From NCBI GenBank assembly GCA_016931115.1, contig JAFGFM010000134.1, positions 1-46,339 of the forward strand: a DNA stretch of 46,339 nucleotides. Reading direction: 5' to 3'. The notes below the pieces were generated by a model. It did not search any database and was not told the DNA's origin. It saw only the letters and a list, made by a program, of their open reading frames with translations. The translations under genes and the position numbers were made by a program. Source of the stretch: Deltaproteobacteria bacterium (GTDB taxonomy: Bacteria > Desulfobacterota > DSM-4660 > Desulfatiglandales > HGW-15). Numbering within the stretch: the stretch's first letter is position 1; each line of letters starts with the position of its first letter. Shown piece after piece: positions 15,357-24,051 of this stretch.

Positions 15357-16688
15357 TTAAACCTGTATTTGTTCCAATTCCGGTATTATAACACCGCCTG
15401 ATGGTACAATAATAACCCCGGGAGATTGAATTAATTCTGAACCTGAATGGATTGCGTCTTCAATGGTTGCCGCATAAATAAAGCCGAGCTTTTCTGCATC
15501 CTCTTTAGGGACTTCCTCTGAAAACAGGATAATATGATAACTTTCAAGGGCAAGAATCACCTGGGCAATAGACATATTAAGTTCAGGCGCACCCCCGCTG
15601 ATAATCCTCTGCCCTGAATTGAAGAAATCAAAAAGCGCCTCCTTAAGTCTGCCTTTGTATTTTTCCCTGAATTCCAGGCATGCATCAAGATATCCCTTGT
15701 TAAAGGCTGAAGTGCATCTGCCCACAAGAATAATCACACCCTGCTCCCTTGTAATAATGGATGCAGGCTCAAGGGGCTTCATAAGCTGGGTTGCCTGCGT
15801 ATATGGAAATGCGCTTATAATGGTGATATCTGCCTTTTTTTTAAAGGTTTTTGAAACAAGTTTTTTACATATATCCGCACCTTTTTTATGGGCAGATATC
15901 GGGTTGCCCGCCACTACCTGATACAGATTATCATTATGGTCAAGCACACTGTTTATAATAAAATCAAGCCTTCCTGCACTGGCAAGGGATATTACTTCAT
16001 CATAAAAAGGGTTGTTAGAAAATTCACCGAGAACAACCTTCCTGAATGCATACCTCATATGATGTTCAAGTATGGCATCAAAATTGGAAATGCCAGGGAA
16101 CATGATCTTTCCGCCACCTCCAAAACCGTTTAAGGGGTGCGGGAAAATGGAACCTATGCCTATCCTGAAATCTGCCTCATGGGCCATCCTGTTTATCTTT
16201 ACGATCGTACCTGATTTAAGCTTACCCACAGGCACAAGGTCAGGGGAGAGAGAGTCATGATTGATAATGGTGTAATTATTAACAACCTCCTCACCATAGG
16301 TCAGTATCATTTCTTTCCTGGTCAGTGCTTCATGCGTACCGAGTGCAACAATTATTATAATATTGCTTTCAGGTATAGATATGGCGTCAAGCTTTTCAAG
16401 CAGATACTTAAGTATCTCTTTTTTGGGTGAATTGCGGGTGTTGTCCTCTATGAGTATTGCTATCCTGTCGAAGGGCCTTAACTGTTTTTCAAGGGGCAGC
16501 GCATCAACAGGGTTATCAAGGGCATTTATGGTAAGATTTTTTATATCGGATAAAACAGGAATATCTTCAAAATCCGCCACATCCAGGATGTTAAAGCGCT
16601 CAGGCACATTGAAAAATAATTTCTTATGCCCATATCTGATATAGAGATCTTTCACAGGGTACGCCATGATGTTGTTAATATGGTGCAT
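15357..16688 (-). CDS. LarA-like nickel-pincer 2-hydroxyacid racemase/epimerase
   Basis: This protein of about 443 residues belongs to the LarA family (formerly DUF2088). Nickel-pincer residues known from lactate racemase are conserved: H119 in VALGTHEA, H184 in SIFPHPLNGF, K194 in GGGGKIMFPG, and a HH pair near 209-210. EDNTRNSPK matches the substrate-loop motif. The family racemises or epimerises 2-hydroxyacids, and many members act on compounds other than lactate. The frame also opens with TTG at 16691; ATG 16688 is used here, and ATG 16667 is possible. It overlaps the alcohol dehydrogenase gene by a few bases, so the two are translationally coupled. LarB, needed to make the cofactor, is encoded at 32179. 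Confidence 0.85.
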   Translation of the reverse strand: MHHINNIMAYPVKDLYIRYGHKKLFFNVPERFNILDVADFEDIPVLSDIKNLTINALDNPVDALPLEKQLRPFDRIAILIEDNTRNSPKKEILKYLLEKLDAISIPESNIIIIVALGTHEALTRKEMILTYGEEVVNNYTIINHDSLSPDLVPVGKLKSGTIVKINRMAHEADFRIGIGSIFPHPLNGFGGGGKIMFPGISNFDAILEHHMRYAFRKVVLGEFSNNPFYDEVISLASAGRLDFIINSVLDHNDNLYQVVAGNPISAHKKGADICKKLVSKTFKKKADITIISAFPYTQATQLMKPLEPASIITREQGVIILVGRCTSAFNKGYLDACLEFREKYKGRLKEALFDFFNSGQRIISGGAPELNMSIAQVILALESYHIILFSEEVPKEDAEKLGFIYAATIEDAIHSGSELIQSPGVIIVPSGGVIIPELEQIQV

Positions 16689-17898
16689 CAAGGAGGCTTT
16701 TTAAAAGATCCTTTACCTCCACTTCTATCAATTCCTTTGGGTTGCCCTGGCTGCAGAAATCATTTGCATATACATTATATATATGGTCAATGTCCTCCTC
16801 CTTAAAGCCATACTGTTCGGCCAGATAACCGGGCTGTATCTCAATATCATGGAGGAGCTGCTCCATCTCGTCAAACCAGCGGTCTGCCATTTCAAGCTGT
16901 GTCATACCTGTTGTATCAATACCCATTGCCAGGGTCATTGCAGCAAATTTTTCTATGGCTGCCGGTTGATTATACCTTTCAGCCCCCAGAACAAGGGCGC
17001 CATTGACATGCCCGTGATGACAGTCAGTTACAGCGCTTAACTGGTGACCCAGGCCGTGAACAATGCCTGCCCCTGCCCCAAAGCCTATGGCTATCCCACC
17101 CATAGTGCTTGCCCAGCACATCTTTTCACAGGCATCCCTGTTCATCCGGTTATGGGTGAATTCCCTGATGTTTTTATATATAAGTTCAATAGCCCTCATG
17201 AGAATACCATATGAATAGGGCGATTGAACCTTTGTTAAAAATGCCTCAAATCCGTGTGACATGGCATCAAAACCTGTCCATGCGGCAAGCTTTTTAGGCT
17301 GAAGCCTCATAAAAAGAGGGTCTATAACCGCTACTGTTGAATGTATATTTGGTGCGCCTATAAGCACCTTTGCGCGTTCTCTGGTGTTGCTGATTGCTGC
17401 CCATGATGTCACTTCAGCTCCAGTGCCTGATGTGGTCGGCACAGAAATCTGGGGAATAACGCACGGGTTCAGCCTGGCAAGTGTCTCCATCCAGGGAGGG
17501 TTAAGCTTTGCTGCAAAATTACCCACATCTCTTCCGCCGTTTGCATCAATTGCCCTGATGCATTTCCCAACATCAATAGAACTGCCGCCACCTACTGCAA
17601 CGATCCCATCACATCCGGTATCCTTGAATACCCTGTAGCACTTCATTATCTCATGATCTTTAGGATTCGAGGTTATGCTATCAAAAACTTCACAGGCGAT
17701 ACCGCCGTTTTTCAAGACCACCTTTACCTCATCAATAATACCTGTCCCCTTAAGACCTGATGTGGTTATCAGGGCCTTTTTAATGTGGTTTGCCCTGCAT
17801 TCATTCGCTATTGTTTCATAAGACCCCCATCCCAGGGCAATTTTGGGTATAGGATTAGTGTAAAGAATAGGAAACTCGTAAATATTTTTATTAAACAT
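16675..17898 (-). CDS. Iron-containing alcohol dehydrogenase
   Basis: This 407-residue group III (Fe-ADH) dehydrogenase carries the NAD(P)-binding GGGSSIDVGK loop, PTTSGTGAEVTSWA, and metal-binding histidines in GFDAMSHGFEAF and GLGHQLSAVTDCHHGHVNG. The family reversibly oxidises alcohols to aldehydes or ketones, or interconverts hydroxyacid-type substrates. Translation start is well supported by AAGGAGGGATGAC before the ATG. Overlap with the LarA-like gene suggests a shared pathway in which a hydroxy compound is epimerised and then oxidised, or the reverse. The substrate is unknown. Confidence 0.9.
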   Translation of the reverse strand: MFNKNIYEFPILYTNPIPKIALGWGSYETIANECRANHIKKALITTSGLKGTGIIDEVKVVLKNGGIACEVFDSITSNPKDHEIMKCYRVFKDTGCDGIVAVGGGSSIDVGKCIRAIDANGGRDVGNFAAKLNPPWMETLARLNPCVIPQISVPTTSGTGAEVTSWAAISNTRERAKVLIGAPNIHSTVAVIDPLFMRLQPKKLAAWTGFDAMSHGFEAFLTKVQSPYSYGILMRAIELIYKNIREFTHNRMNRDACEKMCWASTMGGIAIGFGAGAGIVHGLGHQLSAVTDCHHGHVNGALVLGAERYNQPAAIEKFAAMTLAMGIDTTGMTQLEMADRWFDEMEQLLHDIEIQPGYLAEQYGFKEEDIDHIYNVYANDFCSQGNPKELIEVEVKDLLKSLLDAPY

Positions 17899-17929: not shown

Positions 17930-18382
17930 TCAGCATTTTTTTGTGTATATCTCTTCTGCAAACAACATCACTTCATCTGTCTGCCTGGCAACCTCTGCCC
18001 TCAGTCGTTTAAGATGGGCAAGTCCCTGCCTGTCTACCTTTCGATCTTTAATGGCCTCCTTTATTGACTCTGAAAGATGAGAAACCGCAAGAAAGATATC
18101 ATTTACCTCTTTCTCAAAGTTACTTGTTATATCACCTGTAGCAGGTTTCTGATAAAGAGCCCACCCACAAGGTTCCAGAAATGACTTTATATCAGGGTCA
18201 CCGGTTGCTTCAACAGCTGCCTTGATAAATTCCATATTAATTTTGATTCGTCCATAAAGGCAGTCATACACGGTCTGCTGTGACTTTCCCAAAATAGCAG
18301 CGATCTTTTGAACCGCCTGTTTATTCTCTTTTCTGCCGGTTATAATCCTGTGAATCTCAGAGGCAATTTCTTCAAATTCCAT
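17930..18382 (-). CDS. Phage CII-like helix-turn-helix regulator
   Basis: Start chosen at 18382 because GGGAGAG lies 4 bases before this ATG; an in-frame ATG 15 codons upstream has no such site. The 150-residue product carries a helix-turn-helix in its N-terminal half (QAVQKIAAILGKSQQTVYDCLYGRIKINMEFIKAAVEATGD), resembling the phage regulatory CII (CP76) family, followed by a helical C-terminal segment rich in charged residues. It lies just upstream of the dehydrogenase/LarA pair in the same direction and divergent from the flavodoxin-like gene, so it could control either. No other phage genes were seen nearby. Confidence 0.65.
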   Translation of the reverse strand: MEFEEIASEIHRIITGRKENKQAVQKIAAILGKSQQTVYDCLYGRIKINMEFIKAAVEATGDPDIKSFLEPCGWALYQKPATGDITSNFEKEVNDIFLAVSHLSESIKEAIKDRKVDRQGLAHLKRLRAEVARQTDEVMLFAEEIYTKKC

Positions 18383-18524
18383 AAGACTCTCCCTGTTTGG
18401 TATAATTTTAAAATGATTGGTTTGCATATATATAGCTCTTTATAAAAAGAAAGTCATCTGGTAATCTACCTTTATTCGTAAGTATTGTAACTTTTTCAGG
18501 CTATTTATAAAAAGGAGAATAACT

Positions 18525-19196
18525 ATGAGGGTAATGGCTATCAATGGGAGTCCGAGAAAGGAGTGGAACACAGGCATAATGCTAAAAAAGGCCCTTGAAG
18601 GGGCAGAATCAAAAGGGGCAGAGACAGAAATCATTCACCTCTATGACTACAATTTTAAAGGGTGTACAAGCTGCTTTGCATGTAAGATAAGGGGCGGTAA
18701 AGGCTATGGAACATGCGGGTTCACGGATGAGATGACCCCTGTTTATGAAAGGATAAAAGAGATAGATGTTTTAATTCTCGGGTCGCCCATATATTTCGGT
18801 GATGTCACCGGTGAATTGCGCTCTTTTATCGAAAGGCTCCTTTTCCCCTATCTTGTATATAGCGTGCCGCCAAAGACCCTTTTCCCTAAAAAAATAGGAA
18901 TTGGCCTTATATATACCATGAATTGCCCGGAGGAGTTTGCAGCTAAAGTGGGTTATGACAGGTTATTCACCGGAAACGAACAGATCATGAACATGATACT
19001 TGGAAAGGCAGAGTCTCTTATGAGTTATGAGACATACCAGTTTAAAGATTATTCAAAGGTTGTTGCAGATGGTATTGATGAGGCACAAAGAAGGAAAAGA
19101 CGCGAAGAGGTGTTTCCAATTGACTGTGAAAAGGCATTCAAGCTGGGTGCAAAGCTTGTTGAAGAGGAGCAGAAAATGTCACAGAAGATATATTGA
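18525..19196 (+). CDS. Flavodoxin-like NAD(P)H-dependent FMN reductase family protein
   Basis: This 223-residue protein begins MRVMAINGSPRKEWNTGIML, the FMN-phosphate loop of the flavodoxin-like reductase family. GCTSCFACK and ILGSPIYFGDVTGELRSFIERL are the other flavin-contact motifs. The CxxCFACK pair is common in iron-sulfur-flavoprotein-like anaerobe members, but a full cluster-binding set is not obvious. It probably carries electrons from reduced pyridine nucleotide or ferredoxin. AAAAGGAG precedes the ATG. The gap to the enolase-like gene is 165 bases, so co-transcription is possible but unproven. Confidence 0.85.
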   Translation: MRVMAINGSPRKEWNTGIMLKKALEGAESKGAETEIIHLYDYNFKGCTSCFACKIRGGKGYGTCGFTDEMTPVYERIKEIDVLILGSPIYFGDVTGELRSFIERLLFPYLVYSVPPKTLFPKKIGIGLIYTMNCPEEFAAKVGYDRLFTGNEQIMNMILGKAESLMSYETYQFKDYSKVVADGIDEAQRRKRREEVFPIDCEKAFKLGAKLVEEEQKMSQKIY

Positions 19197-19361: not shown

Positions 19362-20876
19362 ATGGCAAAAGAGACAATAATTACAAATTTTACACTCAAG
19401 GGAAGAGAGGTTTTATCCTCCTATGCAGCTTACACCATTGAAGGAGTAATGACAGCAAGGGTAAAAAGGGGGCGTGACACCTGGACAATTGAGGAAAGAA
19501 ACGGCATCGCCAAAGGCACATCAGATGGTGAAAATGAGGCGATATATATCGAGAATGACAAGGCAATTAAATCCATTGAAAAGAATATAGTGCCCCTCCT
19601 ACCTAAAAAGGTGGTTATCAAAAGGGCTGAAGACATTATTAAGGCAGCCTGCGAGTTTGATCTCAAGCTTGTTGAAAAGGCCGGCCCCAATAAAAAGAAA
19701 TGGGGTGGAAATGCCTGTCTTGCCTCATCCACGGTCTTTTTCCAGACACTGTTAAAGGCATCAGGTTACGAGGCATGGCAGCTTTTAGCCCCGAAAGGAA
19801 TGAAGACATTTTATATGCCCAACATAGCCTTCAATATGGTATGCGGCGGCGAGCATGTACCAGGCACCAAGCAGGACATACAGGAGATGTTCTTTCTTTC
19901 CATGAATCAAAAGTCCATAAAGGGGGTTTTTACACAGGCAATAAAGTTCTTCAAGCAGTTTGAAAAGAACCTTGTAAGAGACGGGCATACAACAGGCACC
20001 GCCAAGGAAAGAGGCTTTGTGTTCCCTGTGAAGGACAACTACGAAGGTCTAAAAAGAATAAAGGAATGCGCAACACAGCTGGGTTTAAAACCTGCTGATT
20101 ATGCAATAGGCACTGACAATGCCTTCAGCGAAATCCAGAAGACTGCAGAGCTAAAAGAAAAGGGGCTTTATGACATGAGGTTTTCCGGGCTCGGCATAAA
20201 GACCAGCGAAGAGCTTATTGAATTTGATGCTGACATTGTAAAAAGTGCGGATAATTTTGTAACCATGGAAGACCCTGGTTCAGAATCCGATATCAATGCA
20301 CACAAACTCATGAATGAAAAATATGGCCACAGGGTACAGATCGTTATTGATGACGCTGCTGTAACACAAATGAGGTTTATCATCCCGTTCCTTGCAGCCC
20401 CCGAACAGAAAAACAGGGCAGGTAACTCTGTTCTTATAAAACTCAACCAGGCAGGGACATTTACAGAGACCTGTCTGGCAACAGAGATTGTCCTTGGCAT
20501 TGCAGACCCGGACCGCGTTGAAACCTTCCTTGCAGCCAGAAATGATTTAGGCAGGGTATTAAAAGAGCTTAAGGCCCTTGGCGTTAACAGCCTTAAGGAG
20601 GCACTCGACAATATTAAAAAGATAGGTGCAACCGCCTTTTTCTCACACCGTTCAACAGAGGGTTCATCCGAGTTTCTGCCATATATGCCAATGATTTATG
20701 GCGCTGTATCGAGAAAGCTCTGGTTCAAGGCTGGCGCACCCAATGGTGAAAGAAACCTACAGAATTACAACCCGCTTATAAGGGCTGAAGAGGCAATGAA
20801 TGAGATGGGTATAAAAACTGTTGTTGCAGGCTTTGAAGGACTGCCGGATGGGGTAAAAATTCCAGCGGTAAAGTAA
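19362..20876 (+). CDS. Divergent enolase-superfamily protein
   Basis: This 504-residue protein aligns with enolase along its length but is clearly not the glycolytic enzyme. Matching segments are GGEHVPGTKQDIQEMF (enolase GGxH...IQEF), VTMEDPGSESD (metal glutamate), VIDDAAVT (metal aspartate), LIKLNQAGTFTET (catalytic lysine K360), FFSHRSTEG (substrate histidine) and WFKAGAPNGERNLQNYNPLIRAEE (K456). Catalytic residues are retained, so an active enolase-type lyase is likely. Differences include an extra segment of about 40 residues before SHRS and changed N-terminal loops, which suggest another substrate. It lies 13 bases before an asparagine-synthetase-type gene and is probably coupled to it. 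Confidence 0.75.
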   Translation: MAKETIITNFTLKGREVLSSYAAYTIEGVMTARVKRGRDTWTIEERNGIAKGTSDGENEAIYIENDKAIKSIEKNIVPLLPKKVVIKRAEDIIKAACEFDLKLVEKAGPNKKKWGGNACLASSTVFFQTLLKASGYEAWQLLAPKGMKTFYMPNIAFNMVCGGEHVPGTKQDIQEMFFLSMNQKSIKGVFTQAIKFFKQFEKNLVRDGHTTGTAKERGFVFPVKDNYEGLKRIKECATQLGLKPADYAIGTDNAFSEIQKTAELKEKGLYDMRFSGLGIKTSEELIEFDADIVKSADNFVTMEDPGSESDINAHKLMNEKYGHRVQIVIDDAAVTQMRFIIPFLAAPEQKNRAGNSVLIKLNQAGTFTETCLATEIVLGIADPDRVETFLAARNDLGRVLKELKALGVNSLKEALDNIKKIGATAFFSHRSTEGSSEFLPYMPMIYGAVSRKLWFKAGAPNGERNLQNYNPLIRAEEAMNEMGIKTVVAGFEGLPDGVKIPAVK

Positions 20877-20889
20877 ACACAGTTTTATT

Positions 20890-22779
20890 ATGTGTGGAAT
20901 CAGCGGAATAATCTCATACAATCTTTCTCAAGATGAAATATACCACAGGCTTGAACAGATGGGCGCCCTCCAGGCCCATCGCGGCCCTGATGATAAAAAA
21001 GAGGCCGTGTATGCCTTCAAATCAGGTTTTGTTGGATTCGGTTTCAGGCGGCTTTCCATCCTTGACCTTGAAACAGGCATGCAGCCGATCGTGTCACAGC
21101 AGGATCAATCTGCCATCATATGTAATGGCCAGGTCTATAATTATCTTGAACTAAGGGCCACCGCCCCTGAAATGGAATACACTACAAAAGGGGATATTGA
21201 GGTCGCACTTAACATGTACAGAAAGCATGGTCTGGATTTTCTGAACAGGCTGAACGGTATGTATGCCGGTGCAATATATGATTATAATAATAGAAAAATT
21301 ATACTCTTCAGGGACAGGTTCGGTATAAAACCCCTTTACTATACTGAATGGGAGAACAACTTCTTTTTCTCATCAGAGATAAAACCTCTCTTAAAAGGGA
21401 GCATGAGACCGGCACAGATCAACCGGGACCGAATAGAGACCTTTTTTAAATACCGCTATGTACCGGGTACAGATACCATGTTCAATGGCATTAAAAAGCT
21501 CCCGCCTGGCTCTTATCTTGAATACAACCTGGATAGTAAAAAATATGAAATAAAAAGGTACTGGGAGTACCGACTTGACCGGGTTGTTCCAGATATGAAG
21601 TTAGAGGAGGCATCCGAGGAGTTTATCAGGCTTTTCAGGGATGCGGTCAGGATAAGGATGAGGTCAGATGTAGAGGTAGGCACACTCTTAAGCGGGGGCA
21701 TAGACTCCTCTGCTGTTTCATCAGAGGCAACAGTAACAAAACCAGACATCAGTCTCTTTTCTATCTCCTTTAATGAAGATAAGTATAATGAACTTCCACT
21801 GATAGAGGAGTTTATCAAAAAGAATGACAACCGATTCAGACTAACAAGGCAACATACAGGGCTGTGCGGGTCAGAGATGCTTAAAGAGTTACCTGAAATC
21901 ATCAAATCTATTGAAGAGCCCATATCACTTGGCACCATCCTGCCCACAGACCAGGTATGCAGGATGGCGGGTGAAAGGGTGAAGGTTGTATTAACAGGAG
22001 AAGGGGCAGACGAGATATTTGGGGGGTACCGCAAATTCCTTATAGAAACTGCTGCAAGCGTATATCACAGCCTCTCTATTTCCGAGCAGAAAGGGCTTGA
22101 GGGGTTATACCCTGAATTAAGGTCATACATGAAAATAAGGAGTAACAACCCTGTAGAAAGATATATCCAGAGTGAATCCCTTTTTACAGGTGATGAATTA
22201 AGGGAACTAACCGGAAAGGATCATGTAAATGATCTTTTTCCTTTAGATGCCACACCATATTTAACGGGTAATGAACACCCCCTTAATGCGGCCATCGCTA
22301 TGGAAACCAAAGCAAGGCTTCCTGATTATGTGATACTCAGGCTTGATAAGCTTTCTATGAGGCATTCACTTGAGGCGCGCACCCCGTTTCTTGATTACAG
22401 GCTTGCAGAGTTTGCTGCTACCCTTCCGATTAACTTTAAGGTAAACCTTGCAGATAATCGTGAAAAATCTATATGCGGTAATTCATTTGCCACCTATTCC
22501 ATCCTGGACAGGGATACAGCCCTCAGAAAAAAACAGCCCTTTACCATACCAATGGCAGACTGGCTTTCAGACCCTTCAAGACTGCCTGAATGTATAAAAG
22601 AGGTAATGTTTGGAGATATGGTTAAAAGACGGGGCATCATAAATCCTGCTATCCTGAAAAGAGAAATCGCACTTATTTCAAAGGAGAATGTCGGTCCCCA
22701 GACACTGGTTTCAGAGGCAGACAGGGTTTATGCGATTATTATATTTACCTTATGGTATGACCTTTTCTTTTCAAAATGA
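20890..22779 (+). CDS. asnB: Glutamine-hydrolysing asparagine synthetase family
   Basis: This 629-residue AsnB-type enzyme has a class II glutaminase domain starting with the catalytic C2 (MCGISGII; then AHRGPDD, RRLSILDL, NGQVYNY) and a C-terminal ATP-pyrophosphatase domain (LLSGGIDSSAVSSEA, then LTGEGADEIFGGYRKF and FLDYRLAEFAA). The family makes an amide from a carboxylate, glutamine and ATP; some members amidate peptides or natural products. C2 fixes the start although no clear ribosome binding site is present, consistent with coupling to the preceding gene. Company of a ligase and an enolase relative makes a specialised role plausible, but ordinary asparagine synthesis is not excluded. 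Confidence 0.9.
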   Translation: MCGISGIISYNLSQDEIYHRLEQMGALQAHRGPDDKKEAVYAFKSGFVGFGFRRLSILDLETGMQPIVSQQDQSAIICNGQVYNYLELRATAPEMEYTTKGDIEVALNMYRKHGLDFLNRLNGMYAGAIYDYNNRKIILFRDRFGIKPLYYTEWENNFFFSSEIKPLLKGSMRPAQINRDRIETFFKYRYVPGTDTMFNGIKKLPPGSYLEYNLDSKKYEIKRYWEYRLDRVVPDMKLEEASEEFIRLFRDAVRIRMRSDVEVGTLLSGGIDSSAVSSEATVTKPDISLFSISFNEDKYNELPLIEEFIKKNDNRFRLTRQHTGLCGSEMLKELPEIIKSIEEPISLGTILPTDQVCRMAGERVKVVLTGEGADEIFGGYRKFLIETAASVYHSLSISEQKGLEGLYPELRSYMKIRSNNPVERYIQSESLFTGDELRELTGKDHVNDLFPLDATPYLTGNEHPLNAAIAMETKARLPDYVILRLDKLSMRHSLEARTPFLDYRLAEFAATLPINFKVNLADNREKSICGNSFATYSILDRDTALRKKQPFTIPMADWLSDPSRLPECIKEVMFGDMVKRRGIINPAILKREIALISKENVGPQTLVSEADRVYAIIIFTLWYDLFFSK

Positions 22780-22861
22780 GTGCATATAGTATTCAGAAAT
22801 GCAAATAACAAAGTATAATAATATCATTTGGAGGTGAGCCTTACTGTTAAAAGGAGAATTT

Positions 22862-23776
22862 ATGGATCAGGGTAACTACATTGCAGAATACAGCCAGAGG
22901 CTCTTAACATTACTGAAGGGAAAAATCATCCCGGGAAATCAGACCTTTGGGTTTGAATATGAATTTTTACCAAAGTTGCCGCTCAACCTTGATATTATGC
23001 AGCAGATCTACAGGTTTTTACCTGAAAAGGGGTTTGAACGACAGGGTACAACATTTGTACATAAATCAGGCATGTATATAGATTTTGAGCCTGGCGGCCA
23101 GATAGAATTCCACACACAGCCATTACTCGCGAATGAAAAAGAGAGATTCACCAATTGCCTCAGCCTGATAAAAGATGTTTTAGCCATTTTTAAAAATGAC
23201 CTGGGCATAGAATATCTTGCCAGAGGTTATATTGCCGGGCGCAAGGATTCACCACTCTGTCTTGATTCACAAAGGTATATCAACCTGCACAACAGACTTT
23301 CAAGATGCGGCACAAGAGGGCTGGAGATGATGAAAGGGACTGCATCCATACATCTCCATGCCGGAATTAAAGATATTGATGAACTGCCCCTCATTCTTGC
23401 TGCAATGATAAAGATGTCTGAGATGGATGAATTTAAAATGGGGCCGGACAGGAGGGATATTTGGGACAATACTGATCCCACCAGGTGCGGCCAGCCTTTT
23501 AAAGTCAGGTATGACATGAAGCCATCCGAGGTAATCGAGATGATTGTGGATCATGCTGCAAGGGCATATCATATTGGTAAAAATCTGCCATTCCTAAAAA
23601 CAGATGATCTCTCCTTTGATGCATTCATGTATCATCTTACAACTATCTTTACAGATATCAGGCTGAATATAAAAGGCCCATCCATTGAACTCAGGACCAT
23701 TGACAGTGTGCCCTTTGATCAGTTTAAACCAAAATGGTTAAGATTTATAAACGTGTTTCAAAATAAATTATTTTGA
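22862..23776 (+). CDS. Short glutamate-cysteine-ligase-type (GCS2-like) ligase
   Basis: This 304-residue protein resembles the plant/proteobacterial GCS2 branch of glutamate-cysteine ligases (also EgtA): FGFEYEFLP at the N-terminus, MYIDFEPGGQIEFHTQPL, GTRGLEMMKGTASIHLHAGI, then RRDIWDNTDPTRCGQPF and the closing GPSIELRTIDS. These map to metal, ATP and glutamate contacts in that family. It is shorter than typical GCS2 enzymes (about 400-450). The reaction should be ATP-dependent amide formation on a glutamate-like acid; the amine partner is unknown. AAAAGGAG supports the start. It sits between the asnB-type gene and a glutaredoxin, which hints at a thiol product. Confidence 0.75.
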   Translation: MDQGNYIAEYSQRLLTLLKGKIIPGNQTFGFEYEFLPKLPLNLDIMQQIYRFLPEKGFERQGTTFVHKSGMYIDFEPGGQIEFHTQPLLANEKERFTNCLSLIKDVLAIFKNDLGIEYLARGYIAGRKDSPLCLDSQRYINLHNRLSRCGTRGLEMMKGTASIHLHAGIKDIDELPLILAAMIKMSEMDEFKMGPDRRDIWDNTDPTRCGQPFKVRYDMKPSEVIEMIVDHAARAYHIGKNLPFLKTDDLSFDAFMYHLTTIFTDIRLNIKGPSIELRTIDSVPFDQFKPKWLRFINVFQNKLF

Positions 23777-23793
23777 ATTATAGGAGCGACTAT

Positions 23794-24051
23794 ATGAAAA
23801 AAGTAACAATATATACTACTCAGACTTGCCCATACTGCATAAAGGCAAAGAGTCTTCTTGAAAAAAAAGGGGTCAGTTACTATGAATTAAGGATTGATCT
23901 TAACCCCGAACTCGCAATAGAGGCAGTAACAAAGAGCGGTGGAAGACGCACAGTACCGCAGATTTTTATAGAGGATCATTATGTAGGTGGGTCTGATGAA
24001 CTGCATGCACTGGAAAAAGAGAATAAACTGGACCGCTTGTTCGCGGATTAG
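23794..24051 (+). CDS. Glutaredoxin (CPYC active site)
   Basis: This 85-residue protein starts at the ATG preceded by TAGGAGCG; seven upstream in-frame codons overlap the ligase gene and lack a site. It has the classic dithiol active site CPYC (TQTCPYCIKAKSLL), the cis-proline TVPQIF and the glutathione-binding GGSDELHAL. Glutaredoxins reduce disulfides or deglutathionylate with a low-molecular-weight thiol. It follows the ligase gene by 17 bases in the same direction, so a functional pairing with a thiol-producing pathway is suggested. Confidence 0.92.
   Translation: MKKVTIYTTQTCPYCIKAKSLLEKKGVSYYELRIDLNPELAIEAVTKSGGRRTVPQIFIEDHYVGGSDELHALEKENKLDRLFAD

Follow-up and report, generated by a model that had tools for sequence, protein, structure and literature searches.

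A divergent enolase beside a conserved asnB-gcs2-grx cassette that may make an amidated gamma-glutamyl thiol

Four consecutive genes on the analysed contig encode a divergent enolase, an AsnB-type amidotransferase, a short GCS2-like ligase and a glutaredoxin (Grx), and the locus raises the question of whether they constitute a single new biosynthetic pathway, as the original prediction proposed, or unrelated units. The window, that is, the whole stretch of DNA that was analysed (46,339 nucleotides), corresponds to contig G000:C180 of a 5.18 Mb assembly that is 98.5% complete, relatives being mostly deltaproteobacterial metagenome-assembled genomes. The open reading frames and their profile matches agree with the predicted coordinates and families of all four genes. 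The predicted spacings were likewise recovered, with 13 bases between the enolase stop and the asnB ATG and 17 bases between the gcs2 stop at 23776 and the grx ATG at 23794, while asnB and gcs2 are 82 bases apart. The ATG at 23794 is taken as the start of grx, the TTG listed at 23773 being less likely. The genes considered here are as follows:

18525..19196, + strand: FMN-reductase/flavodoxin-like protein (PF03358, 78.5 bits)
19362..20876, + strand: divergent enolase, second sequence class (PF00113, Enolase_C, 104 bits; TIGR01060, 132 bits)
20890..22779, + strand: AsnB-type glutamine-dependent amidotransferase of the cassette subfamily, Asn_synthase plus GATase (PF00733, 211 bits; TIGR01536, 388 bits)
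22862..23776, + strand: short GCS2-like carboxylate-amine ligase, candidate gamma-glutamyl-cysteine-type ligase (PF04107, 23.1 bits, cut-off 21)
23794..24051, + strand: CPYC class I glutaredoxin (TIGR02181, 107 bits)

These genes form two unrelated features that lie side by side, the divergent enolase on the one hand and an asnB-gcs2-grx cassette (20890-24051) on the other. The FMN-reductase/flavodoxin-like gene upstream, which the original prediction had tentatively included, is a real gene, but outside the window it accompanies the cluster only in the sister species; its neighbourhood conservation is thus restricted to the genus, and the protein is probably not part of either unit. Further upstream, the minus strand carries a pair of genes at 15357-17898 encoding a LarA-family protein (malate/2-hydroxyacid racemase-like, with scores below cut-offs) and an iron-containing alcohol dehydrogenase, next to a gene (17930-18427) whose small product is a putative HTH protein; this set is kept in the sister species.

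The asnB-gcs2-grx cassette is real and well supported as a unit. In a search of 297 genomes of the phylum, with cut-offs of E ≤ 1e-6 for gcs2 and E ≤ 1e-110 for the AsnB subfamily, both subfamilies were found in exactly the same 10 genomes, which span four genera and three families, and in each of the 16 testable loci from these three families gcs2 is immediately preceded by asnB. Most cassette loci come from one family, so that they represent only three independent lineages. The presence of grx is usual: the gene is directly downstream of gcs2 in the window and in 11 of 17 loci, lies 2.7 kb away in one more and was not seen within 0.85-1.5 kb in four, the remaining locus not being judgeable because its contig ends. 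Within family f44, gcs2 was identified in 15 of 16 genomes, the sixteenth being 68% complete. The predicted joint conservation of four genes therefore holds for asnB and gcs2, and usually for grx, but not for the enolase, as detailed below. A search of a plasmid collection with gcs2 returned weak Shinella matches only, and a literature search found no paper on the cassette. Several observations concern the surroundings of individual loci. In family f44 (L053 791-4666, L054, L056), the cassette is preceded by genes for a response regulator, MoaD-like and ThiF/MoeB-like proteins and an AmpG-family transporter, part of which set is also seen in L058 and L055. In a single genome, gcs2 and grx are separated by the gene of a large putative sensor of 922 aa (L056 4018-6786). 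Outside the window's phylum, one marginal GCS2-like match (8e-16) was obtained, in a single genome from the phylum to which G323 belongs (L138 1501-2241).

The AsnB proteins of the cassette are monophyletic, with a clade support of 100/100, and present the Cys2 nucleophile, the SGGxD motif, the catalytic Lys region and a Glu/Asp pocket. They carry two signatures in the glutamine pocket, Q81 and G101, which correspond to Gln in place of Glu-76 and Gly in place of Ser. Glu-76 belongs to the glutamine pocket (PMC6748925), and its replacement by Gln in all ten cassette AsnBs marks a distinct AsnB subfamily. In human ASNS, the acidic pocket E364/D367/E368 binds the aspartate amino group (PMC6748925), and this pocket is retained in the cassette AsnB as E371/D374/E375. 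The same Glu/Asp/Glu arrangement is kept in PDB 7ylz, which is titled a hydroxyamidotransferase, and hence the acidic pocket does not discriminate between AsnB substrates and was discarded as a substrate test.

The alternative that survives best is that the cassette AsnB is a plain asparagine synthetase and gcs2-grx a gamma-glutamylcysteine/redox pair, with their linkage reflecting shared regulation of nitrogen and sulfur metabolism. A TIGR01536 score above the cut-off (388 bits) and the retained acidic pocket are in line with this explanation, as is the finding that no full AsnB other than that of the cassette was identified in the window's genome (G000) or in G134, both of which have AsnRS. 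No AsnRS, however, was found in the family f44 carriers tested, which should therefore form Asn on its tRNA and have no translational requirement for the free amino acid; these genomes nevertheless keep the cassette AsnB, which is the only full-length AsnB in at least four of them (G141, G216, G259 and G046). The sister species (G208) encodes the cassette AsnB in addition to other AsnBs. Moreover, none of the 297 genomes has the subfamily without also having gcs2, and all of its ten members share the Glu-76 to Gln change. Asparagine synthesis is a possible but less likely role for the cassette AsnB.

All ten GCS2-like members of the cassette match PF04107, weakly so for the protein of the window (23.1 bits), and the family profile matches plant glutamate-cysteine ligases with E = 6e-15. 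Glu, Arg and His motifs are invariant in the family, and the protein scores far under the functional cut-offs of EgtA and of plant GCL (35.7/370.8 and 34.8/463 bits, respectively). A single-sequence AlphaFold model of the protein has a mean pLDDT of 47. In the accompanying Grx, TVP and GG-D, which bind the Cys and Glu moieties of glutathione, are retained. Immediately before the CPYC motif, all 13 cassette members have Thr9 instead of the Lys or Arg of other Grx, in a comparison with few other Grx that includes one PDB Grx with Trp at this position. Lys at the position of Thr9 contacts the glycine carboxylate of glutathione (PMC11724882), and Thr9 would be compatible with a thiol that lacks this carboxylate, for example an amide or a dipeptide.

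The thiol context of the carriers was assessed through the enzymes that make known thiols. Bacillithiol synthase (BshC) was found in none of the 16 genomes searched, which include cassette carriers. A true glutathione synthetase (GshB) was found in only one of ten carriers (G134); the PF02955 ATP-grasp matches of the other nine are weak, absent or RimK-like and were rejected as GshB. With GshB lacking in nine of ten carriers, a gamma-glutamyl thiol formed by the GCS2-like ligase would not proceed to glutathione in most of them. We propose that the product of the cassette is, in general form, an amidated gamma-glutamyl thiol, a reading to which we assign a probability of roughly 45% and in which the substrates, the sequence of reactions and the thiol itself are inferred. 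The GCS2-like ligase would first use ATP to couple an amino acid, cysteine being the most likely one, to the gamma-carboxyl of glutamate. AsnB would then activate the free carboxylate of the gamma-glutamyl product as an acyl-adenylate and amidate it with glutamine-derived ammonia, yielding a small amidated gamma-glutamyl thiol that Grx would use in place of glutathione. The small thiol or gamma-glutamyl product that had been predicted for the locus is compatible with the three-gene cassette. A more specific version of this proposal remains doubtful: the cassette may both make and use a low-molecular-weight thiol that has not been described before, either gamma-glutamylcysteine amide or a molecule close to it, by means of the short GCS2 and a dedicated AsnB, and this compound may be the principal thiol in a family without glutathione or bacillithiol. 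A literature search found no paper on gamma-Glu-Cys amide as a bacterial thiol.

The cassette could instead make an amidated gamma-glutamyl dipeptide that is not a thiol, for example an osmolyte similar to N-acetylglutaminylglutamine amide (NAGGN), with Grx as a passenger. NAGGN biosynthesis follows the same AsnB-plus-ligase logic, the cassette AsnB reaches 298 bits against TIGR03104, and grx is missing at some loci. That score, however, is below the TIGR03104 cut-off of 570 bits, the ligase belongs to the plant-GCL/EgtA type and grx is kept in three families, all of which make a non-thiol product improbable.

Compared to canonical enolases, the divergent enolase shows 25-30% identity, while identity inside its own class is at least 65% across phyla (65-83% among metagenome-assembled genomes, MAGs, of several phyla). 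The two groups are fully separated in the phylogenetic tree, where the divergent group is fully supported. As predicted for this protein, divergence is accompanied by retention of the catalytic residues: S54, H165, E175, E216, D252, E303, D331, K360, H429, R430, S431 and K456 do not vary among the divergent and canonical proteins of the alignment, so that the catalytic Lys/Glu pair, the three metal ligands, the phosphate-binding Arg/Ser and the mobile-loop Ser and His are all retained. An extra, lineage-specific segment lies between K360 and H429. The protein exceeds the cut-off of the broader PF00113 model (104 versus 21.5 bits) and falls under the TIGR01060 equivalog cut-off (132 versus 300 bits), and automatic annotation can therefore miss it. 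A protein search identified relatives with 70-83% identity in 33 named MAGs of Deltaproteobacteria, Bdellovibrionales/Oligoflexia, Fibrobacteres/Chitinivibrionales, Myxococcales and Planctomycetes. No match was found in the plasmid collection, and a literature search found no paper on this enolase class. In the tree, one divergent enolase from a Desulfobulbaceae-labelled contig (L025 321-1820) falls inside Bdellovibrionota, through either transfer or mis-binning of the contig.

In 26 of 36 carrier genomes, a PF00113 search found the divergent enolase and no canonical one, the two forms occurring together in the other 10. Among other genomes of the window's phylum, the canonical enolase is missing in about 19 of 294 (~6%), a difference (Fisher p = 1.2e-18) that mixes phyla and MAG qualities and that far exceeds what incompleteness would give. 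The identification of the divergent protein as the only enolase found in most carriers points to an ordinary enolase function, rather than to a step of a new pathway. A separate glycolytic eno, the existence of which had been raised as a question by the original prediction, is present in the window's genome as a canonical enolase truncated by a contig end (C77:3-587), and the divergent enolase is hence not the sole enolase there. The sister species has a complete canonical enolase, so both forms are present in the genus. The divergent protein, although unusual in sequence class, most likely works as an ordinary enolase in glycolysis/gluconeogenesis. Its genomic replacement of the canonical form supports a probable 2-phosphoglycerate dehydratase, which would interconvert 2-phosphoglycerate and phosphoenolpyruvate; the class is spread across phyla and usually takes the place of the canonical enzyme. 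Bacteria described as 'enolase-negative' have been reported from the rumen (PMC6118326) and belong to a different group. The existence of this class explains why some bacterial genomes would seem to lack a standard enolase, since its members score below the cut-off with their catalytic residues intact.

The large divergence of the protein, its insertion between K360 and H429 and its coexistence with a canonical enolase in 10 of 36 genomes could also be read as signs of another substrate, with the enzyme acting as a carboxyphosphonoenolpyruvate synthase or another acid-sugar dehydratase. Such a role is quite improbable in view of the conservation of all catalytic, metal-binding and phosphate-binding residues and the lack of any other enolase found in 26 of 36 carriers. 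No PEP mutase or phosphonate genes were detected among the cluster and neighbour proteins scanned, and the predicted link to carboxyphosphonoenolpyruvate-type chemistry gained no support.

The genomic neighbourhood of the divergent enolase further separates it from the cassette. No relatives of asnB, gcs2 or grx were found near the enolase in the loci of its 33 named relatives, no gene family is found beside it at more than three loci, and no enolase was found beside the cassette loci outside the window's genus. The arrangement seen here is common only to the window and the sister species, in which about 350 bases separate the enolase from asnB, versus 13 in the window. Taken together with the sole-enolase evidence, these data led to the rejection of the enolase as a pathway member. 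A single new pathway comprising all four genes, for instance with carboxyphosphonoenolpyruvate-like chemistry, is in line with the 13-base spacing in the window but is already largely refuted, and very improbable, given the wider spacer of the sister species, the absence of linkage in the 33 named loci and at cassette loci outside the genus, and the predominance of the divergent enolase as the only one found in its carriers. The original observation of the gene cluster is upheld and its interpretation in part, with support for the cassette but not for enolase membership.

Both units can be compared with known systems. The divergent enolase has the fold family (TIGR01060/PF00113) and all the catalytic residues of the canonical enzyme, eno, and differs from it in its length of about 500 aa, its insertion of about 40-50 aa, its low identity (25-30%) and its score under the TIGR01060 cut-off. 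With plant-type glutamate-cysteine ligases and EgtA (GCS2), the cassette ligase has in common the EPGGQ-E, (R)xxIW and HLTTIF...R motifs, but it is shorter (~304 versus ~450 aa) and scores well under the TIGR01436 and TIGR03444 cut-offs. The cassette AsnB shares an Ntn glutaminase plus synthetase domain organization and the SGGIDS and GEGADE motifs with AsnB and AsnB-like amidotransferases (NAGGN AsnO, XrtA amidotransferase, 7ylz), and is set apart from them by its own clade and by the Gln and Gly that replace Glu-76 and Ser in the glutamine pocket. For the proposed product, the precedent is the glutathione amide of purple sulfur bacteria, the partner reductase of which repels the carboxylate form and has lost a carboxylate-binding Arg (PMC8877833; PMC6336425). 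In a literature search, no biosynthetic amidating gene was found for that system, and most cassette carriers differ from it in being without GshB. If the proposal is correct, the cassette would constitute an amidated thiol pathway of two enzymes only, and would provide genes for amidated gamma-glutamyl thiols in anaerobes, a kind of molecule known from purple sulfur bacteria. The proposed cassette and the glutathione amide system would then have in common the logic of an amidated gamma-glutamyl thiol, their occurrence in anaerobes and a Grx-type partner fitted to the missing carboxylate.
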